From: a virus
Strand: one strand, 5' to 3'
IMG/VR virus record: IMGVR_UViG_3300032240_000787
Span: 1 to 53,919 of that record
DNA length: 53,919 nucleotides
Below the pieces are notes generated by a model, which saw only the letters and a program-made list of their open reading frames with translations, was not told where the DNA came from and made no database searches. Below, piece after piece: positions 13,735 to 26,509 of the stretch. How positions within the stretch are numbered: the first letter of the stretch is position 1; the number at the start of each line of letters is the position of its first letter. Both the position numbers and the translations under genes were made by a program.

Positions 13735-13826
13735 CAGAACCTCCAGATAAAAACGTCCGCAAGGACAACAGCAAGACCAACAACACACGCAAAAAACAGC
13801 ATCTTGTCTTGAAAGTCGTAATCCAT
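13734..13826 (-). CDS. Very small membrane peptide, 30 aa
   Basis: ATG at 13826 preceded by AGGAG at about 6 nt. The frame encodes a short polar N-terminus, one hydrophobic helix (MLFFACVVGLAVVLADVFIW) and ends RF. Its TGA shares one base with the ATG of the SSB-like gene, so translation is coupled. It is the first gene of the leftward transcript. Too short for routine gene calling. Function unknown. Confidence 0.6.
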   Translation of the reverse strand: MDYDFQDKMLFFACVVGLAVVLADVFIWRF

Positions 13827-13842
13827 AACTGACTCCTAAAAC

Positions 13843-13893
13843 CGGCAACATCGCCGTGGACGAACTATAACACAGAATTAAATCGTGCAACAA
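13843..13893 (-). promoter_or_regulatory. Leftward promoter (TTGTTG - 18 - TATAGT) with 5'-terminal hairpin
   Basis: On the minus strand: -35-like TTGTTG (13893-13888), 18-nt spacer, extended -10 TGT-TATAGT (hexamer 13869-13864). An A follows 7 nt after the hexamer (13857). A 4-bp hairpin CGGC-GATGTT-GCCG (13856-13843) starts on the very next base. The same layout is seen at 14145, 19217, 21448 and 24683. It would drive the 30-aa gene, SSB-like, nuclease and small genes. Confidence 0.7.
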
Positions 13894-13895
13894 CC

Positions 13896-13923
13896 TTGCT
13901 CAAACAAAAAGTTTTGTTAAACT
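13896..13923 (+). promoter_or_regulatory. Repressor promoter with embedded inverted-repeat operator
   Basis: -35-like TTGCTC (13896-13901), 16-nt spacer and extended -10 TGT-TAAACT (hexamer 13918-13923). A perfect 7-bp inverted repeat AACAAAA-AG-TTTTGTT (13903-13918) fills the spacer. It also lies just upstream of the leftward promoter. This is where a Cro/CI-like protein would be expected to bind to control both promoters. The ATG of the repressor begins 8 nt after the -10 hexamer, leaving no room for a ribosome-binding site. Confidence 0.7.
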
Positions 13924-13931
13924 GCAACCGC

Positions 13932-14138
13932 ATGACACTGCTTGAATACTTCAGAGACGAACCGAGGGGAGCCAAGTCGGAGATGGCAGAGCACCTGCGC
14001 ATCACGCCGACGTGGCTTTCCCTGATCATGCGCGGACAACGAAAGGCGTCTGCAAACCTGTGCGCACGCATCGAAAAAGCCACACAAGGGCTGGTGACGA
14101 GGGAAGAACTTCGCCCAGACTTGTACGGAAAACTTTGA
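13932..14138 (+). CDS. Cro/CI-like helix-turn-helix repressor
   Basis: 68 aa from ATG 13932. The HTH is visible around residues 14-40: AKSEMAEHLRITPTWLSLIM then RGQRKAS, with C-terminal LCARIEKATQGLVTREEL, as in YdaS/Cro-type regulators. A small DNA-binding protein at a divergent promoter pair is a classic phage switch. No Shine-Dalgarno sequence is seen, and the promoter position predicts an mRNA starting at or next to the ATG, so translation may be leaderless as for lambda cI. No integrase is seen in the window, so lysogeny is uncertain. Confidence 0.8.
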   Translation: MTLLEYFRDEPRGAKSEMAEHLRITPTWLSLIMRGQRKASANLCARIEKATQGLVTREELRPDLYGKL

Positions 14139-14150
14139 GCGTGTTATAGT
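14121..14150 (+). promoter_or_regulatory. Rightward early promoter (TTGTAC - 18 - TATAGT)
   Basis: TTGTAC at 14121-14126, 18-nt spacer, extended -10 TGT-TATAGT with the hexamer at 14145-14150. An A lies 7 nt after the hexamer (14157). A hairpin (TCGC 14158-14161 with GCGA 14168-14171, extended by A14157-T14172) begins immediately. It should drive the structured leader and the ParB-helicase-primase genes. Confidence 0.75.
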
Positions 14151-14156
14151 TTTCAC

Positions 14157-14260
14157 ATCGCTTGGCGGCGATTTTTTGGGTAAACCGAGGCCGGGATTCT
14201 GGCAGTACCCACTGCTCCGCCAACACCGCAAGGTGAGAGTCCCGACCTCGGTTTTTTTTT
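14157..14260 (+). ncRNA. Structured leader RNA / attenuator with three-way junction
   Basis: After the 5' hairpin and a T6 run, a long stem forms between 14182-14199 and 14237-14254: AAACCGAGG pairs with CCTCGGTTT, and CGGGATTC with GAGTCCCG through one G-U pair, with one C/A mismatch. It encloses two hairpins: GCAGT-ACCC-ACTGC (14202-14215) and CACC-GCAA-GGTG (14224-14235), the latter with a GNRA loop. Nine T residues follow (14252-14260), then the GGAG of the next gene. This could be a terminator-attenuator, an antitermination site or a small RNA. The structure is seen in the sequence; the function is inference. Confidence 0.65.
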
Positions 14261-14270
14261 GGAGATGACA

Positions 14271-15080
14271 ATGACAAGAATGGTAAAACTGGAGCACATT
14301 CGCCTTGATGGCGGCACGCAGTTTCGAGATCAGATTGACCAGAACACGGTCAAGCAATACACAGACTGCATGCGCAATGGCGCAAGTTTCCCCCCAATCC
14401 AATGCACCTACGACGGTGTGAATTACTGGATCTGGGACGGCTTCCACAGATACTTTGCGACCCAGTCCGTGGGCTTCAAAGAGATCTCTGTGGAGTACAA
14501 ACCGGGCACCATGGAGGACGCGCAGGACTTGGCCCTGAGCGCCAACGGCAAGCACGGCCTGCCACGCAACAACGCCACCAAGCGTAAGCAGGTTGAGACG
14601 GCTCTGGGCATGGAGCGCCATGCCAACAAATCTGACCGCGAAATCGCCAAGCTGTGCGACGTATCCCATCCCTTCGTGGCTTCAATCCGAAGCCCTGAAG
14701 TCAAGGAGAAGCAGGCCAAGAACCGCGACGCATCTGCGGCCAAGAAGGTGGAATCGGATTCCATCAAGGTTAGTGATGTCGTGCCGAGCACCCCGGTGGA
14801 ATCGGATTCCACGGACTCCAAGCCACCTGTCACGCAGGACTACGGCCCGGACGCTGAAGAACTCAAGGCCATGGAGTTGGCCGAGCAGTCCGACCGCGAC
14901 ACCATGCACAAGATGCTGGAGGCCGACGATGCCTTGGCCACTGCAGTCAAGGAAATCGAGCGCCTGAACTTCCTCAACGCTCAGATGGAGATCCGCATCG
15001 CGGCTCTGATGAACGAAAAAAATGCCGCCATCAAGATGGTGAAAGACCTTGAGAAGCAACTGAAGAAAGCCAAAAAATGA
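14271..15080 (+). CDS. ParB-like nuclease-domain protein with coiled-coil tail
   Basis: 269 aa from ATG 14271, chosen for GGAG 6 nt upstream (ATGs at 14265 and 14280 are alternatives). Residues 8-90 look like a ParB/sulfiredoxin fold with DGGTQFRDQID and IWDGFHR (54-60). An HTH-like segment follows (SDREIAKLCDVSHPFVASI). A linker holds two copies of VESDS, encoded by repeated palindromes (about residues 160 and 176). The last ~60 residues are a coiled coil ending in Lys-rich sequence. Such phage proteins act in DNA binding or transcription control. It overlaps the helicase gene as ATGA. Confidence 0.8.
   Translation: MTRMVKLEHIRLDGGTQFRDQIDQNTVKQYTDCMRNGASFPPIQCTYDGVNYWIWDGFHRYFATQSVGFKEISVEYKPGTMEDAQDLALSANGKHGLPRNNATKRKQVETALGMERHANKSDREIAKLCDVSHPFVASIRSPEVKEKQAKNRDASAAKKVESDSIKVSDVVPSTPVESDSTDSKPPVTQDYGPDAEELKAMELAEQSDRDTMHKMLEADDALATAVKEIERLNFLNAQMEIRIAALMNEKNAAIKMVKDLEKQLKKAKK
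14748..14764. repeat. Palindromic repeat copy 1 (last base differs)
   Basis: GTGGAATCGGATTCCA followed by T instead of C, so 16 of 17 bases match the consensus palindrome GTGGAATCGGATTCCAC. It lies in the linker of the ParB-like gene and reads V-E-S-D-S-I. Confidence 0.85.
14796..14812. repeat. Palindromic repeat copy 2
   Basis: Perfect copy of GTGGAATCGGATTCCAC (8-bp arms, 1-nt centre) only 31 nt after copy 1, in the same linker of the ParB-like gene and the same reading phase, coding V-E-S-D-S-T. Confidence 0.9.
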
Positions 15081-16606
15081 CCGAAGTCCTAGCACAGCGA
15101 GTGTGTGATGATGGATCTACCTTTCCAACTCCACGCCCCTTCCAACTCGACGCCCATCAACAACTCCGTCAGGGGTTCCGCGATGGCCACAAGAACCAAC
15201 TGATCATGGCCCCTACGGGGGCTGGCAAGACCTACCTTGGCCTGCGCATTTGCAACGAGGCCATGCAAAAGGGCAAGCGTGCCGTGTTCCTGTGCGATCG
15301 CACCACGCTGATCAACCAGACCTCTGCCGCCGCCGACGGGTACGGCTTGAGTGAGCACGGCGTGATTCAGGCCAACCACTGGAGACGCCAGCCCGACAAA
15401 CTGCTCCAGATCGCATCTGCCCAGACCATCGCCAAGCGCGAGTACTGGCCGCAACTGGATGTGCTAGTGGTCGACGAGGCGCACACCCAGATGAAAGTCT
15501 GGACTGAGTTTGCCCAGACCACGCAAGCGGCTGTGATCGGCCTGTCGGCCACCCCGTTCTCGACAGGACTGGGCAAAATCTTCACCAACCTGATCAACGC
15601 CACCACCATGCACGAACTCACGCAGTCTGGCGTGCTGGTGCCCATGCGGATTTTTTCCTGCACCAAGCCCGACATGACTGGCGCGGCCACCGCCGGTGGT
15701 GAGTGGACGGACAAGGCCGCAGAAGAGCGCGGCATGGACATCGTGGGCGATGTGGTCACTGAGTGGATCAAGTTCTCCGAAGGCCGCAAGACCATCGTGT
15801 TTGGTGCCACCATAAAGCACTGCGAGGAGTTGGCCCAGCAGTTCATCAATCAGGGCATCATGGCCGCTGTGTTCACTTCGGAGACCACCGCCAAGGAGCG
15901 TGAAGCCCTGTTGCAGGACTACCGCCGCCCCGACAGCTACATCCGGGTGCTGATCAGCGTGGAAGCCCTTGCAAAGGGTTTTGACGTGCCTGACGTGGGT
16001 TGTGTGTGCGATGCCCGGCCACTGCGCAAGTCGTTGTCCACGGCCATCCAGATGTGGGGTCGTGGCCTGCGCTCGTCGCCTGAGACCGGCAAGAAAGACT
16101 GCTTCCTGCTGGACTTCAGCGGCAACATCATTCGTTTTGCCGAGGACTTCACCGACGTGTTTTTCAACGGGCTGGAATCGCTTGACTCCGGCGACAAGCT
16201 GGACAAAAAGATCCGCAAGGACGAGGACATCGAGGTGCGTGGGTGCCCCAAGTGCGGCTACACCCCGTTCCACAAGCGTTGCATGGCATGCGGCTACGAG
16301 CGCGTGCAGAAGAACGCATCCGAGGCACTGCCCGGGCACATGCAAGAGATCACCATCGGTGAGGGCAAAAACAAGAAGGTGCTGGCCAGCAACGCCGAGA
16401 ACCTCTGGCACCAACTGGTGGCCTATGCCAAGATTCATAGCGCCCCTGAAAAGCAACAGGGCAGAGCGTGGCATTTATTTAAGAAGATCACCGGCCAAGA
16501 GCCGACATGGCGCTTCACCACCGCCCCGCAGGTCGAGATCTCTCGCCACACGTACAACAAGATCACGCAACTAAACATGGCGTGGAAGAAGGGGATGCAA
16601 CGATGA
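15077..16606 (+). CDS. Superfamily 2 DEAD/DEAH-type DNA helicase with zinc ribbon
   Basis: 509 aa. Walker A APTGAGKT at 45-52, DEAH at 133-136, SAT at 157-159, VEALAKGFDVPDV near 295-307 and motif VI QMWGRGLR at 325-332 are all present. A four-cysteine zinc-ribbon-like element (C390, C393, C402, C405) follows the helicase core, then ~100 residues without a recognised domain. The order resembles phage RecQ/DEAD-type replicative or repair helicases. It is coupled by ATGA overlaps to the ParB-like gene and the primase gene. It probably unwinds DNA at the phage origin or during recombination. Confidence 0.92.
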   Translation: MTEVLAQRVCDDGSTFPTPRPFQLDAHQQLRQGFRDGHKNQLIMAPTGAGKTYLGLRICNEAMQKGKRAVFLCDRTTLINQTSAAADGYGLSEHGVIQANHWRRQPDKLLQIASAQTIAKREYWPQLDVLVVDEAHTQMKVWTEFAQTTQAAVIGLSATPFSTGLGKIFTNLINATTMHELTQSGVLVPMRIFSCTKPDMTGAATAGGEWTDKAAEERGMDIVGDVVTEWIKFSEGRKTIVFGATIKHCEELAQQFINQGIMAAVFTSETTAKEREALLQDYRRPDSYIRVLISVEALAKGFDVPDVGCVCDARPLRKSLSTAIQMWGRGLRSSPETGKKDCFLLDFSGNIIRFAEDFTDVFFNGLESLDSGDKLDKKIRKDEDIEVRGCPKCGYTPFHKRCMACGYERVQKNASEALPGHMQEITIGEGKNKKVLASNAENLWHQLVAYAKIHSAPEKQQGRAWHLFKKITGQEPTWRFTTAPQVEISRHTYNKITQLNMAWKKGMQR

Positions 16607-17472
16607 CATTCATTGACTTTGCACGCGCTCATGGCGTGGACATCGACCCGGGCAAGCTGTACGCATCCGACAAGATCCGCCGCACCGGGACGGTGGATAA
16701 GCCCCGCTCGGGCAACGGCGCGTACTGGTGGGACGGCAAGCGCGGCTGGGCATTCAACTGGTCTGGAGAAGCCCGGACGATTTGGTACGAAGACCCCAAT
16801 GCCCAGCCATGGACAGATCAGGAAAAGCGCGACTGGATGCTCAAGCGCCAGACGGCCAATGCCCAGAAGGATCGCTCCTACGAGGTGGCCGCACAGAAGG
16901 CCGACATCATCCTGCGCTCGGCCAAAAAGTCCAAGCACAACTACCTGCACTTGAAGGGCTTCCCAGACCTTGAGGCGCTGGTGCTGGACGAGACCCTGCT
17001 GGTGCCCATGCGCAATGTCGTGACCAACAAGCTGCAGGGTTACCAGCAAATTTTTTGGAACATGGACGAGCGCAAGTGGGAAAAGAAAATGCTCACCGGA
17101 ATGCGTGCCAAGAACGCAGTGCTGTTTATGGGCGATAGGAAGGCCGAGGAGGCGTGGTTGGTCGAAGGGTATGCCACAGGCCTATCCGTCCACGCCGCGC
17201 TCCGTAGCGCCGGTTTAAGCGCGTCTGTGGTGGTCTGCTTCAGTGCTGGGAATCTCGTGCAGGTGGCCGACCAGATCCCCGGGCGCAAGTTTTGTTTTGC
17301 GGACAATGACGAGAGCCAGACGGGCGAGAAGGCGGCAAAGTCTGCTGAATTGCCCTATGCCATGGCGGACACCGTCGGGTGGGATGCCAATGATCTGCAC
17401 AAGGCCAAGGGGCAATACGCTGTGATGGCCAAGATCATGGAGTGCCGACTGAAATCCCTTGTACACTCCTGA
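16603..17472 (+). CDS. Toprim-domain primase
   Basis: 289 aa from the ATG overlapping the helicase stop (ATGA). Residues 182-245 contain the Toprim signature: WLVEGYATGLS with E188, VVVCFSAGNLVQVA and KFCFADND with D234 and D236. The N-terminal part (GAYWWDGKRGWAFNWSG) resembles the front of DUF7146/Toprim-type phage primases. It would make RNA primers with the adjacent helicase. No classical CHC2 zinc finger is visible. Since no DNA polymerase is seen, extension would rely on the host. Confidence 0.85.
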   Translation: MTFIDFARAHGVDIDPGKLYASDKIRRTGTVDKPRSGNGAYWWDGKRGWAFNWSGEARTIWYEDPNAQPWTDQEKRDWMLKRQTANAQKDRSYEVAAQKADIILRSAKKSKHNYLHLKGFPDLEALVLDETLLVPMRNVVTNKLQGYQQIFWNMDERKWEKKMLTGMRAKNAVLFMGDRKAEEAWLVEGYATGLSVHAALRSAGLSASVVVCFSAGNLVQVADQIPGRKFCFADNDESQTGEKAAKSAELPYAMADTVGWDANDLHKAKGQYAVMAKIMECRLKSLVHS

Positions 17473-17485
17473 GCCTCTGAGGGTC

Positions 17486-17633
17486 GTGCTGGTGGACTGA
17501 AAACACCAGCGCCAACACGCATGGGGATTGCAGCGATAGGCATGGAGCGGGTTTACGCTATCAGTCGCGGATCGGACAAGGCCTACTAAGCCCTAGCCCC
17601 TTTCCACGCAGTCCCCAGCCGTGTTGGTGGCGC
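17486..17633 (+). ncRNA. Structured non-coding region after the primase gene
   Basis: The 306-nt gap 17473-17778 has no convincing gene but strong pairing potential. A hairpin GCTGGTG-N9-CACCAGC (17488-17494/17504-17510) comes first. A long-range stem joins CCAACACG (17512-17519) to CGTGTTGG (17620-17627), and GGGGA (17523-17527) to TCCCC (17612-17616) after a 3x3 internal loop. GATAG/CTATC (17535-17539/17558-17562) pairs inside. A further GGCGC...GCGCC hairpin lies at 17629-17647. The outer stem and first hairpin share bases, so they may be alternatives. It could be a ncRNA or a replication-origin structure; function unknown. Confidence 0.45.
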
Positions 17634-17721
17634 AGCGGGTTAGCGCCGCTGTCTTCTGCTTGTGCATGAATTGCAAAAAACACTGCTTTATGTGGGCCAC
17701 CAACTTCACCTATTGACAAAG

Positions 17722-17749
17722 TTGCCCTGACAGGCTTTTTCTGTAAAAT
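17722..17749 (+). promoter_or_regulatory. Possible promoter of the Pro/Gly/Met-rich gene
   Basis: TTGCCC (17722-17727), 16-nt spacer and TAAAAT (17744-17749), with an A 7 nt downstream (17756) and the gene start at 17779. A better -35 hexamer (TTGACA, 17713-17718) lies too far upstream for this -10. No 5' hairpin follows. AAAGGA lies before the ATG. Confidence 0.45.
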
Positions 17750-17778
17750 GGCCCCAGCCCATACACAAAAGGATTGTC

Positions 17779-18699
17779 ATGGCCAACATGCTCACCAGCA
17801 GCACCAACACGGGTGCCCTGCCACAGACTCCCGCTCAACAGCCCAGTACGACTAACTCCACGACGACGTACAACCCGTCGCAGGACATGTATAGCGTCGG
17901 CTCGGCCAACAACCCATTTGGAGCGCAACAGGGCGGTATGTATGGCTCCCCGCCGCCATCCACGCCGACTGGCATGACGGGCATGGGCGCAATGGCCCCC
18001 CAGCTTGCTCAGAATTTTGGTAATGTGATGGCGTCCAACATGAGCAACCCATTTGGTGGTTCACCGACAACATCAACAACTACTACCCCGGCCACTGGCA
18101 TGACTGGAATCGGGGCGGCAGCAGGTCAAGTCGGTGCAGGACTTGGGAACGCGCTTCTGGGCAACACGACCACCATTTCGCCTGACTTGCAGAGACTGAT
18201 GGCGATGTATCAAGGCAATCCGCAACCAACAGGTGAGACATTTATTGAAGGTCTTGGCTTTGTTCCGTCCATGGCACCACCAACGACAATCTCGCCCGAA
18301 GTCATCCAGAAGTATTTGGCAAGCGGGATGACGCCCCCCAGCCAATTGCCTACTTCACAGCCCGGGCCTGTGCAGACATACAACCCCGACTTTGACTACA
18401 ACTCTGGTGGATTTAATCCAAGCAAACCTATCGAAAGCGTGATCCCGCAGTACACCCCCACGCCAGCGCAGTACCCCGGTGCGCCTATCGGCATGCCGCA
18501 GCAAATGCCCTTCCCCGGCATGATGGGCAACCCCATGGGGCCAAAGGGCTTCCACCAGCCTCCTATGCGCCCCAATCGCGCTCAGATGCTGATGGAGATG
18601 CGCAATCGTGGAAACCGTCCAAACGGTGTTTTTGGCATCAACCCCAATCCCGGGATGCAACGCCAAGACTTTGGGTTTGGGCCTGATTTCAACAATTAA
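17779..18699 (+). CDS. Pro/Gly/Met/Thr-rich low-complexity protein, unknown function
   Basis: 306 aa. Almost the whole product is low complexity: Thr/Ser-rich N-terminus, repeated NPFG (NNPFGAQQGG, SNPFGGSP), TGMTGMG/TGMTGIG repeats, and a Pro/Met-rich C-terminus (PIGMPQQMPFPGMMGN). No membrane segment or enzyme motif. Base and codon use match the neighbours, so it looks like a maintained gene. It sits alone between two structured non-coding regions and has its own promoter and 3' hairpin. It resembles virion or disordered scaffold proteins more than early proteins. Not recognised. Confidence 0.75.
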   Translation: MANMLTSSTNTGALPQTPAQQPSTTNSTTTYNPSQDMYSVGSANNPFGAQQGGMYGSPPPSTPTGMTGMGAMAPQLAQNFGNVMASNMSNPFGGSPTTSTTTTPATGMTGIGAAAGQVGAGLGNALLGNTTTISPDLQRLMAMYQGNPQPTGETFIEGLGFVPSMAPPTTISPEVIQKYLASGMTPPSQLPTSQPGPVQTYNPDFDYNSGGFNPSKPIESVIPQYTPTPAQYPGAPIGMPQQMPFPGMMGNPMGPKGFHQPPMRPNRAQMLMEMRNRGNRPNGVFGINPNPGMQRQDFGFGPDFNN

Positions 18700-18704
18700 T
18701 CCCC

Positions 18705-18727
18705 AAATGCGACATAGTGTCGCATTT
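18705..18727 (+). terminator. 3' hairpin after the low-complexity gene
   Basis: Perfect 10-bp stem AAATGCGACA/TGTCGCATTT with a 3-nt TAG loop, 6 nt after the stop codon. The stem ends in TTT but no U-tract follows, so it may be a weak bidirectional terminator or an RNA end-stabiliser. Confidence 0.6.
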
Positions 18728-18735
18728 CAAAAATG

Positions 18736-18765
18736 TTGACATGCTTTAAAGCGTGTTGATACAAT
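18736..18765 (+). promoter_or_regulatory. Strong sigma70-like promoter for a candidate ncRNA
   Basis: Consensus -35 TTGACA (18736-18741), 18-nt spacer ending GTGTTGA, and -10 TACAAT (18760-18765). An A lies 7 nt downstream (18772). No coding sequence with a start and ribosome-binding site follows; instead an RNA-like structure with a terminator does. Confidence 0.75.
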
Positions 18766-18771
18766 CCGCAA

Positions 18772-18889
18772 AACAGCAGGAATGGAAGCCCTGCTGAAAA
18801 GCTGTTAGGTCAGACTCCGACCCCTAGTGGGTTTGTTGCATCGAAAGGTGTGGCGCTTCCAACGGGGTCTGTCTTAACAGCTTTTTTTT
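18772..18889 (+). ncRNA. Candidate free-standing small RNA with intrinsic terminator
   Basis: Predicted length about 118 nt. A 5' hairpin CAGCAGG/CCTGCTG (18774-18780/18790-18796) is followed by a long stem: AAAAGCTGTTA (18797-18807) pairs perfectly with TAACAGCTTTT (18875-18885), then AGAC/GTCT (18812-18815/18871-18874) and GACCCC/GGGGTC (18819-18824/18864-18869). Inside is CATC-GAAA-GGTG (18839-18850) with a GNRA loop. Eight T residues (18882-18889) end it. The preceding consensus promoter and the U-tract make an independent transcript likely. No known RNA family was recognised. Confidence 0.65.
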
Positions 18890-19191
18890 CGTCCAGAACT
18901 TCTCGTACTCCGCACGACAGCAGGGGCCGCAAGTGGGGCCGCTCGGAAGAAAACCGCGACACGGTATGACTTCGGTCTAGGGGGCAGTTCCCGAACAATC
19001 CGTGCGGCTGGTCGAATCGTCAAGCCGGGGGCATACGGTATCCAATCCGTAGCATGACGATCCCGTTCATCGGGGGTGAAGCACCTTTCTCCTTCCTTAC
19101 TCCACCGCCGTGGGGTAGGGGGGGTCTTTGGGTGAAAGGATTGAGAGGGGGGACAAGGGAGCAAAAAAAAAGGGACACGACCCAGTTTTTT
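18890..19191. other. Unassigned ~300-nt intergenic stretch
   Basis: No gene with a start and ribosome-binding site is apparent. Visible elements: the direct repeat GGGGCCGC (twice, 18916-18935 region), small hairpins TACGG/CCGTA near 19035 and TACTCCAC-CGCC-GTGGGGTA near 19102-19121, then a G/A-rich tract with A9 and T8 runs up to 19193. It may be untranslated RNA, an origin or a decayed gene. I see nothing that decides. Confidence 0.4.
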
Positions 19192-19243
19192 TTGACCACA
19201 AACTCTAATTTGAAGTTAAACTGCACAGACCACAAAATCGTGG
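19192..19243 (+). promoter_or_regulatory. Middle-operon promoter with 5'-terminal hairpin
   Basis: TTGACC (19192-19197), a long 19-nt spacer and -10 TAAACT (19217-19222). The seventh base downstream is A (19229), and hairpin CCAC-AAAATC-GTGG (19230-19243) begins on the next base. It is followed directly by GGATTACAGGA, shared with the leader at 24711. It drives the gene series from 19262. Confidence 0.65.
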
Positions 19244-19261
19244 GGATTACAGGAAAAAATC

Positions 19262-19540
19262 ATGACCGAAGCAGAAGAGATGGAAGAGTTGATCTGGAAG
19301 CGCCGCAAGGACAAGTTTGTCTCCGAGGGGTGCCCGGAGCCACAGGCACACGAGTTGGCAGCGACGATGATGCTCCGCGACCGCGAGGACGACCCTGACT
19401 GCCTGCGCACTTGCTTTGAGTGCAAGCACCTGAAGGGCAGGCACTGCGAGGGCATCACAGACCGTTTTGGCAAGCCCACCACGCAGATGCGGTTCATCCT
19501 GCAACGCTGCCCCACATTCGTTTTGAAGGGAAAGAAATGA
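19262..19540 (+). CDS. Small Cys-rich (zinc-binding-like) protein
   Basis: 92 aa. An acidic/basic helical N-terminus (MTEAEEMEELIWKRRKDKF) is followed by a Cys/His cluster, CLRTCFECKHLKGRHC, and a last Cys near the end (LQRCPTF), which suggests a zinc finger. First gene of the operon from the promoter at 19217. The stop overlaps the RuvC-like gene start (ATGA). It may bind DNA or a partner nuclease. Not recognised. Confidence 0.7.
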   Translation: MTEAEEMEELIWKRRKDKFVSEGCPEPQAHELAATMMLRDREDDPDCLRTCFECKHLKGRHCEGITDRFGKPTTQMRFILQRCPTFVLKGKK

Positions 19541-19992
19541 GAGTCCTTGGAATTGACCCCGGTGCGTCTGGCGCACTGGTGCTGTTGGAGAACGGCCAGC
19601 CCATCGAGTGGACAGAGATGCCCACGCTCAAGATCGGCAAGGCCACGCGAGTCAACGCCGCCGCGCTGGCCGACTGGATTGCATCGGTGTGTTGCACGCA
19701 GGTGTATGTCGAGCAGGTGCATGCGATGCCCGGGCAGGGTGTGGTGTCCATGTTCAACTTTGGGCACTCGTGCGGCACCGTTATGGGCGTGCTGGGGGCT
19801 ATGTGCCTGCCCTACGCCATGGTGACGCCACAGGAGTGGAAGAAGGCCGCAGGGCTGATCGGCACCGACAAGGACGCCGCCCGGTCACGCGCAATTCAGA
19901 TCTGGCCGAAGTGGCGTGATCTGGACAAAAAAGGCAAAGGACAAGCACTGGCTGACGCCGCCCTGATCGCGGCGTATGGAGAACTGACATGA
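19537..19992 (+). CDS. RuvC-like Holliday junction resolvase
   Basis: 151 aa from the ATG overlapping the previous stop. RNase H-fold motifs are visible: GIDPGASGALVL with D7, VYVEQVHAMPG with E59, and C-terminal ALADAALIAAYGE with the last acidic residue. A basic stretch TPQEWKKAAG and the length fit phage and bacterial RuvC-type resolvases. It would cut branched DNA made in recombination before packaging. Coupled by ATGA to the next gene. Confidence 0.9.
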   Translation: MRVLGIDPGASGALVLLENGQPIEWTEMPTLKIGKATRVNAAALADWIASVCCTQVYVEQVHAMPGQGVVSMFNFGHSCGTVMGVLGAMCLPYAMVTPQEWKKAAGLIGTDKDAARSRAIQIWPKWRDLDKKGKGQALADAALIAAYGELT

Positions 19993-20615
19993 CAAAAAAC
20001 GAAGCATTGAAGCAGGCGCTGGAGGCGATACAAAGCGACCTCGGCACTTACAACATTCCACCAACTTCTAAGATGCTGGAAGCCATCACCGCCATCAAGC
20101 AAGCCCTTGAGCAGCCTGTGCAGGAGCCTGTGGCTTGGGCGGATATGGGCACTCGTGATGTGGATAACGATGTTGGTCTTTCGTGGACTCCGGGTTACTT
20201 TCACACGCAACCCCTCTATACCACCCCACCCGCACAGCGTCCTTGGGTTGGTCTGACGGATGAGGAGACGGAGACGCTGATTCACCGATTTGGCGGTGAC
20301 CCGTGGACACTGTTGGACGAGGTTACAGCAAGGCTTGAAAAGAGGAACACAATGGATAAAGACGGATACCACGGCCATGACACCAATGCTTGGCGCAAAG
20401 ACGCAAGTGAATACGAGCGCGGGTTCATTGACGGTATGCAAAAGCAGATGCAGTCAAGCGTGGACAAGGCGGTCAACGCAATGTCACAGCGGCAATGGGC
20501 TGGGCTGACGGACGAGGAGATTCAAACCATCGTTAACAAGGTGGCAAGTGATTACCAAACTAGCGACACATTTGCCCGAGCCATTGAGCAAGCCTTGAAG
20601 GAGAAGAACACATGA
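19989..20615 (+). CDS. Phage accessory protein with repeated GLTDEE motif
   Basis: 208 aa. The N-terminus (NEALKQALEAIQ) is a helical motif common in phage accessory proteins. YFHTQPLYTTPPAQRPWVGL is a segment seen in many phages of Burkholderiales. The motif QRxWxGLTDEE occurs twice, ~100 residues apart (QRPWVGLTDEETETLI and QRQWAGLTDEEIQTIV), suggesting internal duplication. Function unknown. Coupled by ATGA overlaps on both sides. Confidence 0.7.
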   Translation: MTKNEALKQALEAIQSDLGTYNIPPTSKMLEAITAIKQALEQPVQEPVAWADMGTRDVDNDVGLSWTPGYFHTQPLYTTPPAQRPWVGLTDEETETLIHRFGGDPWTLLDEVTARLEKRNTMDKDGYHGHDTNAWRKDASEYERGFIDGMQKQMQSSVDKAVNAMSQRQWAGLTDEEIQTIVNKVASDYQTSDTFARAIEQALKEKNT

Positions 20616-20782
20616 CGCTTGACGAACAGATCATGAGATTGTCCGCAGGCAGGATGCACCTTGGCTGGTTTATGGACTGGTTCGATCAAGATGAAAAGTG
20701 GGAAAGCTACCTGCGATGCGCAGTGCTGTTTCACGCCTACGACGAACTGTTGAAAAAGAAAATGAAGGAGAAAAACAAATGA
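20612..20782 (+). CDS. Small protein, 56 aa, unknown function
   Basis: It starts MTLDEQIMRLSAG and ends in a Lys-rich helix (LLKKKMKEKNK); the middle is aromatic (MHLGWFMDWFDQDEKWESYL). Both ends overlap neighbours as ATGA, strong evidence that it is translated. No domain recognised. Confidence 0.65.
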   Translation: MTLDEQIMRLSAGRMHLGWFMDWFDQDEKWESYLRCAVLFHAYDELLKKKMKEKNK

Positions 20783-21120
20783 CCGTATCGCAAACTGACA
20801 TCAATAATGCCGTGGACTACATCTACAGCCATGGCCAGAAGTATGCCCAAGCAAAGGGGCACCTGACCTACTTGGAAGAATTCCGCAAGAGCAAGAAGTC
20901 GATGCTCATGAAGACCGCCATGGCCAACGGCATCAAGACCGCCGCCGCCGCCGAGATGGAGGCCTACGCCGATGTGGAGTATGTGGAGTTGCTCAAGGGC
21001 ATTGCCGCCGCCACAGAGGCCGCAGAAGGCCTGCGCTGGGGGTTGGTAGCGGCACAAGCCCGGGTGGACGTCTGGCGCTCTCTGGAGGCCTCCAATCGCT
21101 CGATGGATAGGCTGGGATGA
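20779..21120 (+). CDS. Helical phage protein, unknown function
   Basis: 113 aa from the ATG overlapping the previous stop; a longer upstream frame is the previous gene in another frame. All-helical: VDYIYSHGQKYAQAKGHLTY, KKSMLMKTAMAN and Ala-rich segments. It lies directly before the Ref-like nuclease (ATGA overlap). Proteins of this look often sit beside Ref-type genes in phages, so a recombination accessory role is possible. Confidence 0.65.
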   Translation: MTVSQTDINNAVDYIYSHGQKYAQAKGHLTYLEEFRKSKKSMLMKTAMANGIKTAAAAEMEAYADVEYVELLKGIAAATEAAEGLRWGLVAAQARVDVWRSLEASNRSMDRLG

Positions 21121-21389
21121 ACAACAAATTGACCAAAACCGAGCGCCTGCATCTGGCCCGGGTGAAGGAACTGCCCTGCAGTGTCTGTGACGCCCCCGGG
21201 CCGTCCGATGCTCACCATGTCAAACAGCACCGCCAGTACACCTGCGTGGCCCTGTGCAAGTCCTGCCACCAAGGCGCTCTCATGGGCCTGCATGGCCAGC
21301 GCAGGGCATGGGCCATCGCCAAGATGGACGAGATGGACGCCTTGAATGTGACCATCCAGAGGCTCGTGGAATCGGATTCCACACATTAG
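21117..21389 (+). CDS. Ref-like HNH nuclease / zinc-binding protein
   Basis: 90 aa. CSVCDAPGPSDAHHVKQHRQ (C21, C24, H33, H34) and ALCKSCHQGALMGLHG (C47, C50, H51) form the HNH/zinc core seen in phage P1 Ref (a RecA-dependent nuclease) and related small proteins. The C-terminus RLVESDSTH is encoded by a 17-bp palindrome found five times in the genome and looks like an added tail. Last gene of its operon; the next promoter follows at 21448. Confidence 0.75.
   Translation: MNNKLTKTERLHLARVKELPCSVCDAPGPSDAHHVKQHRQYTCVALCKSCHQGALMGLHGQRRAWAIAKMDEMDALNVTIQRLVESDSTH
21366..21382. repeat. Palindromic repeat copy 3
   Basis: Perfect GTGGAATCGGATTCCAC covering the last codons of the Ref-like gene, again read V-E-S-D-S-T, then H and stop. 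Confidence 0.9.
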
Positions 21390-21447
21390 GGAAAGTACCT
21401 AGAAAAATATTTTGAAAAAGTGTTGTGTTGGTTCTTTAACTTCGTGT

Positions 21448-21475
21448 TAAAATTCATGCACGGTCAACGAGACCG
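21448..21475 (+). promoter_or_regulatory. Extended -10 promoter with 5'-terminal hairpin
   Basis: TGT-TAAAAT (hexamer 21448-21453), A at 7 nt (21460), and hairpin CGGTC-AACGA-GACCG (21461-21475) starting on the next base. GGATTACCAAGGA follows, containing the ribosome-binding site. The -35 region is weak. A second inverted repeat TTTAAC/GTTAAA overlaps the -10 and could be an operator. Confidence 0.72.
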
Positions 21476-21493
21476 GGATTACCAAGGATTAAC

Positions 21494-21787
21494 ATGACCA
21501 CCATCACCACCACCCCCGCTTCTGCTGACGAATTGGGCACTTTGCTGGCTCAAATCGCCAGTCTGACCAAGCAGGCTGACGCCATCAAGGACGCCATGAA
21601 GGATGTGGCCACCCGTAGCGACACCAAAGTTTTTGAGGGTTCGCTCTTCAAAGCGACCTTCATCGAGGCCAACCGTAATGTCGTTGACTACAGCGCCCTG
21701 ATCGCCGAGTTGGGTTGCACCGACGAGCAACTGGCTCGTTTCACCAAGACCACTGCGGTCTTCAGCATCAAGACAACCGCACGCTGA
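21494..21787 (+). CDS. Small phage protein, unknown function
   Basis: 97 aa. Thr-rich start, then a helix (LGTLLAQIASLTKQADAIKD), a basic beta-like part (GSLFKATFIEANRNVVDY) and SALIAELGCTDEQLARFTKT. The coiled coil followed by a beta element resembles small phage accessory proteins, but no family is certain. First gene after the 21448 promoter, with AAGGA before the ATG. Confidence 0.65.
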   Translation: MTTITTTPASADELGTLLAQIASLTKQADAIKDAMKDVATRSDTKVFEGSLFKATFIEANRNVVDYSALIAELGCTDEQLARFTKTTAVFSIKTTAR

Positions 21788-21794
21788 TCAACCC

Positions 21795-21810
21795 GGGGGC
21801 TTCGGCCCCC
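21795..21810 (+). terminator. GC-rich UUCG hairpin in an operon gap
   Basis: GGGGGC-TTCG-GCCCCC, a very stable hairpin 7 nt after the stop of the 97-aa gene. No T-tract follows (ACAAG), so it may stabilise RNA ends or give partial termination rather than full termination. Confidence 0.5.
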
Positions 21811-21819
21811 ACAAGAAAT

Positions 21820-22167
21820 ATGTTCCAAAACACTTTTTGTTCACAATGCGGCCAGTCATTTGGCACAGGCAACAGCGGCTACAGCCACTGCAAAGATCAC
21901 AAGGAAAAAACAATGAAACGCAATTTCCGGCTTGCTTTCAATGCACTCAAGAAGCTGGGCGTGCCAGTGTATGAGCGGGACGACATGGACGGTCGATTCC
22001 AGATCAGCGCGGAGGATCCTGAGTCGTACAAGTGGTGCAACTACTACGCCATCAATCACGACAACTGGATCTTTGGCGTGAACCCTCAGGTCGAGGGAAC
22101 TCTTGCCAAGTACGGCCTGTTCAGCGAATGGATCAACCCGGGTGAACTGGGCGTTTATAAACTTTGA
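21820..22167 (+). CDS. Phage protein with N-terminal zinc knuckle
   Basis: 115 aa from ATG 21820, chosen because the N-terminal CSQCGQSFGTGNSGYSHCKDH resembles a zinc knuckle seen at the start of many phage proteins. The start would move to 21913 (after KEKT) if the knuckle were not translated. The rest (FNALKKLGVPVYERDDMDG, NHDNWIFGVNPQ) is a small alpha/beta domain. Function unknown. Confidence 0.65.
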   Translation: MFQNTFCSQCGQSFGTGNSGYSHCKDHKEKTMKRNFRLAFNALKKLGVPVYERDDMDGRFQISAEDPESYKWCNYYAINHDNWIFGVNPQVEGTLAKYGLFSEWINPGELGVYKL

Positions 22168-22177
22168 GGAGAAAATC

Positions 22178-22372
22178 ATGGAAGACATCGTCATCAAAAC
22201 CAAATCACAATACGACAAGGTCAGCGTGACCGAGTTCGATGGGTGCCTGTGGTTGCACCTGACCATCCGCAATGGCACCTGCCACGTCACGCTCACCAAG
22301 GAGCAGGCCAATGACTTGATCATGGGCCTGCAAACAGTCGTCGCAGTTCTGGAGGAACAACATCATGACTGA
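22178..22372 (+). CDS. Small phage protein, unknown function
   Basis: 64 aa from ATG 22178 with GAGGAG 7 nt upstream. It reads as beta strands (VSVTEFDGCLWLHLTIRNG, CHVTLTKEQ) followed by a C-terminal helix (ANDLIMGLQTVVAVLEEQ). Overlaps the next gene by 8 nt. Confidence 0.6.
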   Translation: MEDIVIKTKSQYDKVSVTEFDGCLWLHLTIRNGTCHVTLTKEQANDLIMGLQTVVAVLEEQHHD

Positions 22373-22652
22373 GAAAAAAGAACTGTCGGGCTTGGCCCGT
22401 CAAATCCTTGGCGGCTCCGGGGCCGTCGACTTCTATACCCAACAGGAATTCGACGCCGCCCTGACGGTGGCCAAGGCCGAGATCATGACGGTGGCCATCC
22501 AGACCAGCAGGCAGGCCATCTTTATTGAGCGTCAGGCCTGCGCAGAACTTGTCGCAAAGCTGGCGGACGAAGAGGATGAGGGTTCGGTAGCCACGGCCCT
22601 CAGGAGCGCCTCTGAGGCCATCCTAGACCGCATCCCATCGCAGAGGCAGTGA
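22365..22652 (+). CDS. Small helical protein, unknown function
   Basis: 95 aa: LSGLARQILGGSGAVDFYTQ, then long helices (QEFDAALTVAKAEIMTVAIQ, EVATALRSASEAI-like). Overlaps both neighbours closely within the operon. No domain recognised. Confidence 0.6.
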   Translation: MTEKKELSGLARQILGGSGAVDFYTQQEFDAALTVAKAEIMTVAIQTSRQAIFIERQACAELVAKLADEEDEGSVATALRSASEAILDRIPSQRQ

Positions 22653-22653
22653 C

Positions 22654-22839
22654 ATGCGATTCATCTCAAATACCCTGCTGGCGGCTTTGCTGATCGTGGC
22701 ATGGCTCGGCTTGATCGACCTGTCGAGCCGTCTTGCAAAATCCGAGCACCGAGTGGACTGTTCAATTTCTGAGTTCCACCCGGACATCACCCCAAAAGAA
22801 CGTGAAGCATGCAGAGAACGCAGGAGAAATAAATCATGA
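22654..22839 (+). CDS. Small membrane-anchored protein
   Basis: 61 aa with one N-terminal hydrophobic helix (ISNTLLAALLIVAWLGLIDL) and a polar, basic C-terminus containing two Cys (VDCSISEFHP, EACRERRRNKS). One base after the previous stop; ATGA overlap with the methyltransferase gene. Possibly an envelope-associated phage peptide. Not recognised. Confidence 0.6.
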   Translation: MRFISNTLLAALLIVAWLGLIDLSSRLAKSEHRVDCSISEFHPDITPKEREACRERRRNKS

Positions 22840-24194
22840 GATTCGGTTCTGTCTGCTCTGGTATCGAAGCCGCCAGCGTGGCGTGGCATCCGCTTGGATG
22901 GCGTGCCGCTTGGCTGTCCGAGATTGAGCCTTTCCCTAGCGCCGTGCTGGCGCATCATTACCCGGATGTCCCCAACCTTGGCGATATGACTTTGTTGCCC
23001 GAGCGCATCTTGTCTGGAGAGGTTGAAGCACCTGATGTTTTTTGTGGAGGAACACCGTGCCAAGCATTTAGCGTCGCAGGTCTTCGCAAGTCCCTTGAGG
23101 ATGCTCGGGGGAATCTTTCACTCACTTTTGTAGGAATCGCAAATGCAATTGACCATGTTCGATCTATTCGATCAACTCCTCCAGCAATCGTCTTCTGGGA
23201 AAACGTGCCCGGAGTCCTCAGCACTAAGGACAATGCCTTCGGCTGCTTTCTTGGAGCACTTGCCGGGGAAGATGATCCGCTCATCCCATCAAGGGAAAAA
23301 TGGACGAACGCAGGTTGTGTGTATGGCCCCCAAAGAACAGTCGCGTGGCGAGTCCTTGACGCCCAATATTTCGGAGTGGCCCAACGCCGCCGACGTGTGT
23401 TCGTTGTCGCAAGTGCTAGAGACGGGTTCGATCCCGCAGCGGTTCTTTTTGAGTTCGGTGGCGTGCGCCGGGATACTGCGCCGAGCCGAGAAGCGGGGCA
23501 AGGATTTACCCCCGGCGCTACAAGCAGCCCTTCAAGCAGTAGCTGGTGGGATGGCGGCGATGTAGATGCAACACTGACAACCAAAAGCGATGACCAGCGA
23601 ATGCCCGACAAGGCGAACGCGCAGTTGGTGATGCAGCCCATTGCTTTCCACCCAACGCAAGACCCGATCAGCAGCAAGGATGGCAGCACCCACGCAATGG
23701 GCACGGGCAATGGTCAAGGGTGCGCCACAGTGGCGGTGATGCAGCCCATCCCAATCGACACAATGAATCACATTGGTCGGGGCGATAACCACAGCATGGG
23801 TGACTTTGTGCCCGGCGCTCCAAGTTTCACCCTGACCAAGGGGCACAGCCATGCGGTGGCGACGCCGATGGATTTCGACCTTGCTCAAATCACCAGCGCG
23901 GCAAACCGCTCACGGGTCAGCCCCGAACTGCCAGCCAGCACAATCACCAAGGGCAGCGACATGCATGTGGCCAACACAATGGCCGTGCGCCGCCTGACGC
24001 CAGTGGAGTGCGAACGCCTGCAGGGCTTTCCTGACCAGTACACGGCTATCAGTTGGCGCAAGAAGCCTGTCGATGAGTGCCCAGACGGCCCGCGCTACAA
24101 GGCGCTGGGCAATAGCTGGGCCGTCCCGAATGTCCGATGGATTGGCCAAAGAATTCAAAATGAAATTGAAAAAAGCAAAAAGCAAAACAAATGA
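22836..24194 (+). CDS. DNA (cytosine-5) methyltransferase
   Basis: 452 aa. Motif I FGSVCSGIEAAS, motif IV GGTPCQAFS with catalytic C75, motif VI ENVPGV (122-127), motif VIII QRRRRVFVVA (183-192), a variable target-recognition region (~200-385), motif IX RRLTPVECERLQGFPDQY and motif X YKALGNSWAVPNVRWIG are all in order. It transfers a methyl group from SAM to cytosine, probably to protect phage DNA from host restriction. No partner restriction enzyme is seen. A second conserved-looking frame lies inside the gene at 23143-23565. Confidence 0.95.
   Translation: MRFGSVCSGIEAASVAWHPLGWRAAWLSEIEPFPSAVLAHHYPDVPNLGDMTLLPERILSGEVEAPDVFCGGTPCQAFSVAGLRKSLEDARGNLSLTFVGIANAIDHVRSIRSTPPAIVFWENVPGVLSTKDNAFGCFLGALAGEDDPLIPSREKWTNAGCVYGPQRTVAWRVLDAQYFGVAQRRRRVFVVASARDGFDPAAVLFEFGGVRRDTAPSREAGQGFTPGATSSPSSSSWWDGGDVDATLTTKSDDQRMPDKANAQLVMQPIAFHPTQDPISSKDGSTHAMGTGNGQGCATVAVMQPIPIDTMNHIGRGDNHSMGDFVPGAPSFTLTKGHSHAVATPMDFDLAQITSAANRSRVSPELPASTITKGSDMHVANTMAVRRLTPVECERLQGFPDQYTAISWRKKPVDECPDGPRYKALGNSWAVPNVRWIGQRIQNEIEKSKKQNK
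23143..23565 (+). CDS. Overlapping gene inside the methyltransferase (phage GILRRAEKRGK family)
   Basis: 140 aa in a different frame, fully within the methyltransferase gene. AGGA lies 7 nt before its ATG. The product has a recognisable order: LTMFDLFDQ, SSSGKTCPES, SLSQVLETGSIPQRFFLSSV, ACAGILRRAEKRGKDLPPAL. I recognise this as a widespread phage protein family usually encoded next to cytosine methyltransferases, with 'LS-x-VLE-x-vP-x-ryfLS-x-AC-x-GILRRAxxRGk'. Its conserved part is read from the bases that encode motif VIII and VASARDGFDPAAVLFE of the enzyme. Family function unknown. Confidence 0.6.
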   Translation: MQLTMFDLFDQLLQQSSSGKTCPESSALRTMPSAAFLEHLPGKMIRSSHQGKNGRTQVVCMAPKEQSRGESLTPNISEWPNAADVCSLSQVLETGSIPQRFFLSSVACAGILRRAEKRGKDLPPALQAALQAVAGGMAAM

Positions 24195-24643
24195 GTCACG
24201 AAGCAAAACAGTTTTATCTTGACCAGATCAGTCGCAAGCCAAAGTCCAACCGATTCGTCGAGCAGTTGATGATGCGGCACTTCCCGGTGTCTGGCATCCA
24301 GATCCGCACCCAGTTGCTGGAAGAGGGCTACATCGTAGTGGTGGAACAGGAAGCCGCAAAGGATGGCCGGATCTATTCCAAAGTCATGGCCACCGGCAAG
24401 AAGCTACCCAAGCCAGAGATGGAGCAGGCCTACAGCGCCACATGGGAGGACGGCACCCCGAAGTCCCATGGCAATGCATTCGACTGGCGCAACTACGGGA
24501 GCGCCATCCTAAATGACCGTGCATTCCGAATGGCCGAGATGGCCAAAAAGAACTCCACCGGCACTGGTGTGGACGCACGCAAGCAATTCACGATCTACAG
24601 TCGATCGCGGCCAGATGCACGCCGGGGCGCTTCTCCGGCATAA
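24191..24643 (+). CDS. Phage protein, unknown function
   Basis: 150 aa, coupled to the methyltransferase by ATGA. It starts MSHEAKQFYLDQISRKPKSN. A middle beta-like part (LLEEGYIVVVEQEAAKDGRI) and FDWRNYGSAILNDRAFRMAE are the most ordered parts. The C-terminus is basic and probably disordered (SRSRPDARRGASPA). No domain recognised. Last gene before the next promoter. Confidence 0.65.
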   Translation: MSHEAKQFYLDQISRKPKSNRFVEQLMMRHFPVSGIQIRTQLLEEGYIVVVEQEAAKDGRIYSKVMATGKKLPKPEMEQAYSATWEDGTPKSHGNAFDWRNYGSAILNDRAFRMAEMAKKNSTGTGVDARKQFTIYSRSRPDARRGASPA

Positions 24644-24682
24644 GGGTTTGTCCCTATTTGCTATATTCCTGTAATTCCGTGT

Positions 24683-24710
24683 TAGAATTCACGTACTGCG
24701 AAATTAGCAG
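24683..24710 (+). promoter_or_regulatory. Extended -10 promoter with 5'-terminal hairpin
   Basis: TGT-TAGAAT (hexamer 24683-24688), A at 7 nt (24695), and hairpin CTGC-GAAATTA-GCAG (24696-24710) starting on the next base, followed directly by GGATTACAGGAGA with the ribosome-binding site. Sequence around the -10 resembles that at 21448 (CCGTGTTAGAATTCA versus TCGTGTTAAAATTCA), while the hairpin sequence differs. Confidence 0.72.
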
Positions 24711-24728: not shown

Positions 24729-24935
24729 ATGACAAGATTCACAGACCGCACGATCCGCAAAGCAGGCCAGTGGGTGAAGATTACCCGAGACAACAAGATG
24801 AAGACCTTCACTCTCGCTCGTGGCTACGAGGGCGACTGGAAGTCCATTGAACTGGAAACCCTTTCTTTCAAGTGGGTTGCCAACTGGGCTGAAGCCACCG
24901 AGCGTGCGCTCCGTTCTATGTCCACATACGCCTGA
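24729..24935 (+). CDS. Small basic protein, unknown function
   Basis: 68 aa: MTRFTDRTIRKAGQWVKITR, then TFTLARGYEGDWKSIELE and a C-terminal helix WVANWAEATERALRSM. First gene after the 24683 promoter, with AGGAGA about 8 nt before the ATG. No domain recognised. Confidence 0.65.
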   Translation: MTRFTDRTIRKAGQWVKITRDNKMKTFTLARGYEGDWKSIELETLSFKWVANWAEATERALRSMSTYA

Positions 24936-26448: not shown

Positions 26449-26499
26449 AATCCAACTGAGAGTTACACTTCGCACCATGCACTGAAAGATCGTGCGAAG
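26441..26499 (+). promoter_or_regulatory. Late promoter with overlapping 8-bp inverted repeat
   Basis: TTGGCT (26441-26446), 17-nt spacer, TACACT (26464-26469). A perfect inverted repeat CTTCGCAC (26468-26475) / GTGCGAAG (26492-26499) overlaps the -10 and the start region. An alternative hairpin TGCAC-N9-GTGCG begins just after A26477, the eighth base past the -10. The repeat may be an operator or a 5' RNA hairpin. It would drive the terminase and late genes. Confidence 0.6.
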
Positions 26500-26509
26500 G
26501 GAACAGACA

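Follow-up and report, generated by a model that had tools for sequence, protein, structure and literature searches.

Why should several promoters of one phage each place a short hairpin directly behind the predicted first transcribed nucleotide, with stem letters that change from promoter to promoter? The question is raised by the IMG/VR virus record IMGVR_UViG_3300032240_000787, the 53,919 bases of which (hereafter, the window) contain ParB-like, helicase, primase, methyltransferase, terminase and tail genes. An original prediction had listed five promoters here, each with an A 7 nt past the -10 hexamer and a hairpin starting on the next base, four of them with an extended -10 (TGTTAnAnT). 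All five, numbered sites 1-5, were checked base by base, with folding being started from the predicted +1 A. The promoters, the position of the A, the stem sequences and, in four cases out of five, the extended -10 were all verified. The hairpin indeed begins right after the A, at +2, at sites 1, 3, 4 and 5; at site 2, by contrast, the stem takes in +1 itself.

Examination of the sequence around the -10 elements revealed that sites 1, 3, 4 and 5 are one sharp class, defined by a near-palindrome, TnTAAYN5GTTAnA, that lies over the -10 at each of these sites and nowhere else in the window. The five matches obtained (one perfect palindrome being counted twice) compare with 0.01 expected. Site 2 (14145) is without the palindrome and so falls outside this class. 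At site 1, on the minus strand, the palindrome (TTTAATTCTGTGTTATA; 13866-13882) overlaps the -10 TATAGT (13869-13864), and sequence and folding place the predicted +1 A at 13857, followed by the 5' hairpin CGGC-GATGTT-GCCG (13843-13857, A included). This leader serves a 30-amino-acid open reading frame (ORF) at 13825 and the MSFFVENKGG gene. The other members of the class lie on the plus strand. Site 3 (19204-19243) comprises the palindrome TCTAATTTGAAGTTAAA (19204-19220), the -10 TAAACT (19217-19222), the predicted +1 A (19229) and the hairpin CCAC-AAAATC-GTGG (19230-19243), ahead of a gene starting at 19262. In site 4 (21435-21475), the palindrome TTTAACTTCGTGTTAAA is joined by the -10 TAAAAT (21448-21453), the predicted +1 A (21460) and the hairpin CGGTC-AACGA-GACCG (21461-21475), with a 97-amino-acid gene starting at 21494. 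Site 5 (24670-24710) likewise combines the palindrome TGTAATTCCGTGTTAGA, the -10 TAGAAT (24683-24688), the predicted +1 A (24695) and the hairpin CTGC-GAAATTA-GCAG (24696-24710), before a 68-amino-acid gene that starts at 24729 and has a related gene in locus L002. No terminator-type U run is present at sites 1, 3, 4 or 5. The original prediction had missed the palindrome, as well as the Cro/YdaS-like gene next to it and the scarcity of hairpins on short leaders, the latter two being considered below.

Throughout the window, 2.5% of A positions (602/24000) directly precede a hairpin of at least 4 bp, as compared to 4/4 of the palindrome promoters. To ask whether the same arrangement recurs in related phages, relatives of the 97-amino-acid gene (374 stretches, 80 kept) and of the 68-amino-acid gene were fetched by protein alone, whereas loci L103-L206 had been picked for containing such a hairpin. 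As such, the protein-fetched set is the fair sample, although the same answer was obtained from both. The motif-plus-structure search in related phages that had been proposed with the original prediction revealed the same cassette, ordered as palindrome, -10, 6-7 nt, A, hairpin, Shine-Dalgarno sequence and start codon, before 51-57 gene families. Specifically, 199 palindrome promoters in sense orientation precede 67 protein clusters, and a hairpin is found at 168 of these promoters, in 57 clusters; a few clusters correspond to spurious ORFs, with a stricter set comprising 51 families. The motif was detected in 14 of the 19 long records, with two to nine matches each (palindromic sites being counted on both strands), while a reversed control motif was found in none of the 19. 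Relatives include MW202545.1, an annotated record with a terminase 82% identical to that of the window, which carries the cassette too. On the other hand, such a promoter was not found in Limnohabitans phage DC33 or phage zth2-2, in both of which the 97-amino-acid gene is present. In L039, L041, L043 and L273, DC33 among them, the leader of the 97-amino-acid gene was observed to contain GCAGGC...GCCTGC-type repeats and no palindrome promoter. It was also noted that DC33 (PQ492659.1, L273) is filed under Inoviridae, a taxonomy that looks wrong given its genome of 39 kb, in which one gene measures 9.4 kb.

The position of the hairpin relative to the promoter is strictly kept. Among 136 extended -10 sites from 101 related loci and the window, hairpins start at offset 7 in 34 cases and at offset 8 in 12, with approximately 1-2 starts at each other offset. 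In the protein-fetched loci with leaders of at least 26 nt, the first pairing falls exactly at +2 in 46 of 50 cases, as compared to 5.8 when the leader was shuffled. The A of the relatives lies 7 nt (~70%) or 8 nt (~29%) past the -10 and adjoins the stem in nearly all cases. Indeed, an A directly precedes the stem in 155/168 and, one position further upstream, a C is found in 136/168, giving an initiator-like CA.

Pairing of the stem is conserved irrespective of its sequence. In 41 distinct hairpins with a 6-nt loop, 100% of stem cells pair, as compared to 85.8% upon shuffling, and 27 cells differ on both sides, as compared to 6.8; when the partner was slid by 1-3 columns, only 9-61% paired. 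Because these hairpins had themselves been picked for pairing, the shuffle and slide controls, and not the 100%, offer the fair comparison. Of 182 sites unselected for pairing, 145 form a hairpin, as compared to 64 once the 3' arms were swapped (maximum of 76 in 1000 swaps); for stems other than CTGC, the numbers were 41 and 7.6 of 78. Many sites that lack a perfect stem contain hairpins with G-U pairs, bulges or internal loops at the equivalent place, such as CGGTC-AACGA-GATCG and CTGAC-ACA-GC-AAATCC-GC-ATA-GTCAG, while most of the remaining sites without a hairpin correspond to the palindrome read on the opposite strand. Individual promoters reflect the same trend. The site 1 ortholog in MW202545.1 relies on a different stem, CGATC(A)/(T)GATCG rather than CGGC/GCCG, and loci related to site 1 carry CGGTC/GACCG. 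In relatives of site 4, stems reading CTGC, CCGC, CTGAC, CGGTC/GATCG and ACAGC appear at the equivalent place, while CCAC/GTGG stems are mostly retained in genes related to that of site 3 (family 2). The original argument that stems changing with pairing and position kept point to a selected 5'-terminal RNA hairpin is, therefore, borne out by covariation, by arm swapping and by the scans with matched and mismatched arms that follow.

In these scans, GTGTTAnAnT was followed by a free gap of 0-30 nt and either ACTGC-N6-GCAGG or ACCAC-N6-GTGGG. In IMG/VR, the first stem yielded 77 distinct matches and the second 33, of which 71 and 19, respectively, lay at gap 6 or 7. When the arms were exchanged and hence unable to pair, only four and six matches were obtained, of which none and one, respectively, were at gap 6 or 7. 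In 257 gigabases of cellular genomes, the ACTGC-N6-GCAGG pattern returned 64 distinct matches across the gaps, nine of them at gap 6-7; one cellular match is a phage-like contig (L212) of an uncultured Burkholderiales metagenome-assembled genome (MAG). The comparison with host promoters raised by the original prediction was thus addressed in part, with offsets in cellular sequence being flat and, in 150 genomes of the likely host order, Burkholderiales, the palindrome motif being no more common than its reversed-pattern control. Of 35 readable palindrome-like sites in those genomes, four present a hairpin at offset 7. One of the four, on contig L345 of the same MAG, is the phage's own site 1. 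A small excess of hairpins at the other palindrome-like sites of Burkholderiales genomes is possible. Site 1, promoter and hairpin together, also recurs in locus L276. The presence of promoters of this phage type on both L345 and L212 of the uncultured Burkholderiales MAG offers a weak hint as to the host.

The hairpin nonetheless does not accompany every palindrome promoter. The predicted leader is mostly 33-36 nt long, comprising the A, a hairpin of ~14 nt and 18-21 nt that include the Shine-Dalgarno sequence. When predicted leaders are at least 26 nt long, a hairpin is found in 146/148, whereas of those of 24 nt or less, only 2/12 contain a 5' hairpin, both weak; as 11 of the 12 short leaders came from pattern-chosen loci, the share of short leaders is uncertain. 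Promoter and hairpin are, accordingly, separable, with the hairpin appearing where RNA upstream of the ribosome site would otherwise be exposed. Such a rule is what one would predict for a hairpin meant to keep any 5' RNA from being left naked. The idea that hairpin-less promoters are those of the helix-turn-helix gene described below was rejected, as this is true of only two (L143 and L150); others precede a 200-amino-acid family (MDxLEExHYF) and a family starting MKSKYT. Together, these observations describe the cassette as a dispersed promoter plus leader of a group of freshwater phages, probably of Burkholderiales.

That hairpin and palindrome promoter go together was also evident from sites in related phages picked on the basis of the -10, A, hairpin, Shine-Dalgarno sequence and ATG, with upstream sequence left unconstrained. 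Despite no upstream rule having been applied, the left palindrome arm was present in 135/155 such sites, conservation of its T, T, A and A being 92-97% each. Some 19 bp ahead of the -10, these sites present a weak TTG. Activation of the MerR kind, suggested by the distance of ~19 bp between this weak -35 and the -10, was rejected given that the dyad overlaps the -10 and is not within the spacer. Likewise, a bidirectional promoter, with the left arm serving as a -10 on the other strand, is not favoured, since conservation of the base needed to complete it reaches only 53%.

A candidate for the protein reading the palindrome is found next to site 1, where a Cro/YdaS-like helix-turn-helix gene (13932-14138, plus strand) diverges from that promoter. 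Its product matches PF15943 (E=7e-14; 51.8 bits versus a cut-off of 30), as well as PDB Cro chains and the phrog_35 repressor. Of 21 related records, 16 encode a homolog; where such a record bears the palindrome, the homolog mostly lies close to one. As a dyad over the -10 beside a Cro-like gene suggests an operator, the palindrome is most likely the operator of this Cro/YdaS-like protein, which would co-regulate these promoters. The arrangement spanning 13866-14138, with the gene divergent from the palindromic promoter, is kept in most related records and possibly represents an undescribed phage regulon. Elsewhere in the window, a perfect 8-bp inverted repeat around a single G, GTGGAATCGGATTCCAC, was noted three times (14748-14764, 14796-14812 and 21366-21382), within coding sequence or at its end, with the first copy ending in T.

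Promoters of other types in the window may also include such hairpins. At site 2 (14145-14172, plus strand), the -10 TATAGT is followed by an A at 14157 and the stem ATCGC/GCGAT, which includes +1 and is succeeded by a U6 run; the site serves as leader of a small structured RNA that ends in a terminator ahead of the ParB-like gene. This stretch (14157-14255), a small RNA or attenuated leader, contains a T run in addition to the outer stem ACCGAGG..CCTCGGT and abuts the ParB-like gene. In L276, its one relative, the site 2 region is 92% identical and the stem unchanged. The promoters at 18760 and 26464, which the original prediction had deemed close variants, proved to present stem letters that differ in relatives while pairing is kept. 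The former (18760-18796, plus strand) drives a conserved structured RNA and combines the -10 TACAAT with the hairpin CAGCAGG-AATGGAAGC-CCTGCTG, without a palindrome; in relatives, stems read ACGTCGG/CCGACGT, CACCGG/CCGGTG and TTGCA/TGCAA, with the TGGAA loop kept. The latter (26464-26500, plus strand), the promoter of the terminase small-subunit gene, also lacks the palindrome and presents the -10 TACACT and the hairpin TGCAC-TGAAAGATC-GTGCG; in relatives, the loop is unchanged and the stem reads TGCGC...GCGCG in L105 and L182 and TGCGC...GCGTG in L212. On the basis of these few sequences, both look like true 5' hairpins at other promoter types. The structured RNA itself was seen to span 18734-18960, possibly reaching ~19110, with the 5' hairpin, its variable stem and TGGAA loop being followed by GCTGTTAAGTCAGACTCCGACCCC. 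Some 18 related loci are ~68-91% identical over the matched stretch, and no Rfam family corresponds to it. Rfam covariance models gave no matches in the window at the gathering score, and a relaxed threshold applied to 18690-19270 returned a mir-320 match alone, judged to be due to chance. When the region under study was compared to phage records by megablast, the methyltransferase gene was the sole match, while a search with a 150-amino-acid ORF identified only one relative.

What, then, might such a hairpin do? Of the three functions first proposed, namely, protection from 5'-end-dependent decay, marking of phage RNA and tuning of transcription start and escape, protection fits best, and it is probable that the 5' stem-loop built into these phage mRNAs limits such decay. 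In this scenario, host RNA polymerase would start at the A 7-8 nt past the -10, as suggested by canonical spacing and the CA initiators. If so, the stem would begin within ~4 nt of the 5' end. The first transcribed element would be a hairpin of 4-5 bp with a 5-6 nt loop, extending from +2 to approximately +15, and would be followed by some 18-21 nt of mostly unpaired RNA containing the Shine-Dalgarno sequence and start codon. The message would then comprise one unpaired 5' nucleotide, the hairpin and, beyond this, only RNA covered by the initiating 30S subunit. The 5' end would thereby be denied to RppH and to the 5'-phosphate pocket of RNase E, such that the mRNA would be longer lived. Escherichia coli RppH requires two or more unpaired 5' nucleotides. 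In Bacillus subtilis, RppH likewise needs at least two (PMC3997798, PMC4227774). Stem-loops at the 5' end are described as stabilizing ompA and papA mRNA (Emory 1992, Bouvet 1992, Arnold 1998 and Bricker 1999, as cited in PMC3997798) and T7 gene 10 mRNA (Mertens 1996, as cited in PMC2254391), while in Cupriavidus necator, a betaproteobacterium, the T7 gene 10 stem-loop raised mRNA levels and reporter output 1.5-3-fold (PMC6146998). RNase E/G was present in 41/41 searched genomes of the probable host order.

Several points weigh against this interpretation. The +1 is a prediction from sequence and an effect on stability is what we infer, the stems are short, with a median free energy (dG) of about -5.5 kcal/mol, and the host was deduced from one MAG. 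As regards the operator role proposed for the palindrome, the helix-turn-helix gene is present without the exact palindrome in records G002, G007 and G009. RNase E can also gain 'direct entry' independently of the 5' end (PMC4191395). Finally, in a large E. coli library, hairpin height proved unimportant for decay, being outweighed by the first four nucleotides, translation rate and single-stranded length (PMC11541907).

Other explanations account for part of these observations. Were the hairpin to serve translation, insulating the ribosome-binding site such that the Shine-Dalgarno sequence stays unpaired at a fixed distance from the 5' end, one could understand why it mostly ends 18-21 nt before the start codon, near the upstream edge of the 30S footprint, and why it is mostly missing from leaders too short to hold it. 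Insulation, however, does not need an exact +2 start, yet the register is tied to transcription start, with the A adjoining the stem at either distance, 7 or 8 nt, from the -10, and this explanation is considered unlikely. It is more doubtful still that the hairpin is a mark for a phage or host RNA-binding protein, for example, one favouring phage over host mRNA. Although loops are mostly 5-6 nt long, often with AA first, and hairpins occur at several promoter types of the group, including those of the noncoding RNA and late genes, a single genome contains stems, and in large part loops, of freely varying sequence, which argues against a sequence-specific binder, and no candidate for a binding protein was identified.

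A role for the dyad in DNA, as a second operator or in tuning open-complex formation or promoter escape, seems slightly less probable again. Such a role would be in keeping with a dyad in the initially transcribed region beside a promoter that itself has a DNA dyad over its -10, but unrelated stems in one genome exclude a single sequence-specific protein, G-U pairs of the RNA type and bulged or internal-loop forms are kept, and the hairpin is missing from some palindrome promoters. As to the hairpins being the result of chance or selective reading, the frequency of 4-bp hairpins cited above shows these to be common, but the four of four palindrome promoters of the window and all of the tests in relatives refute this explanation, leaving it a negligible likelihood. 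Protection from 5'-end-dependent decay thus being preferred, it may tentatively be extended to the phage group as a whole, in that almost all messages whose leader exceeds ~25 nt might possess a cap-like hairpin leaving exactly one 5' nucleotide free, such that the phage transcriptome would collectively resist 5'-end-dependent decay as host mRNA is turned over, with the remaining messages having short leaders covered by the ribosome.

A position-locked 5' hairpin rule, free of sequence and holding genome-wide in natural phages, would provide evidence from evolution that decay of mRNA from its 5' end is a pressure phages have to overcome, and would reveal one nucleotide to be the overhang favoured by selection. 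In addition, the simple signature of palindromic -10, A and hairpin at +2 can be used to call promoters, start sites and gene starts in many uncultured freshwater phages, and yields a candidate regulon for their Cro-like protein.

Comparison with known systems helps define what is new here. In the case of the phage N4 virion RNA polymerase, promoter hairpins form in template DNA, have a 3-nt loop and lie upstream of +1. The present elements are similar in that a hairpin is tied to transcription start, but differ in that the hairpins are downstream of +1, have 5-6 nt loops and accompany a sigma70-type -10. Phage regulators of the Cro/YdaS type with dispersed operators likewise involve a small helix-turn-helix gene divergent from an operator-like dyad over the -10; here, however, each positive long record has two to nine motif matches at separate promoters, and binding is putative. 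The SAS/ESAS elements of Cluster K mycobacteriophages are also short inverted-repeat elements found before a subset of genes genome-wide (PMC3203893). Yet the 17-bp repeat arms of ESAS are conserved, and their variation does not support RNA pairing (PMC3203893), whereas the arms described here vary yet pair and their position is tied to +1. The conserved asymmetric SAS sequence GGGATAGGAGCCC was not seen at the start codon, where leaders read GGTTTAA..AGGAG or GGATTACAGG. Closest in form are ompA, papA and T7 gene 10, where a hairpin near the mRNA 5' end precedes an unpaired Shine-Dalgarno region and where, according to the literature cited above, pairing and closeness to the end matter and the letters do not. 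In those examples, however, the hairpin belongs to individual genes or to one class of promoter with one sequence, whereas the phage group relies on several promoters per genome, more than 50 gene families and short stems of changing letters, with the start fixed at +2 and coupled to a palindromic promoter. Literature searches for a phage-wide +2 hairpin gave nothing relevant, an absence that is no proof. The 5'-terminal stem-loop itself is, therefore, a known kind of element, while its systematic use in a fixed register, free of sequence, at numerous promoters across a group of phages looks new.

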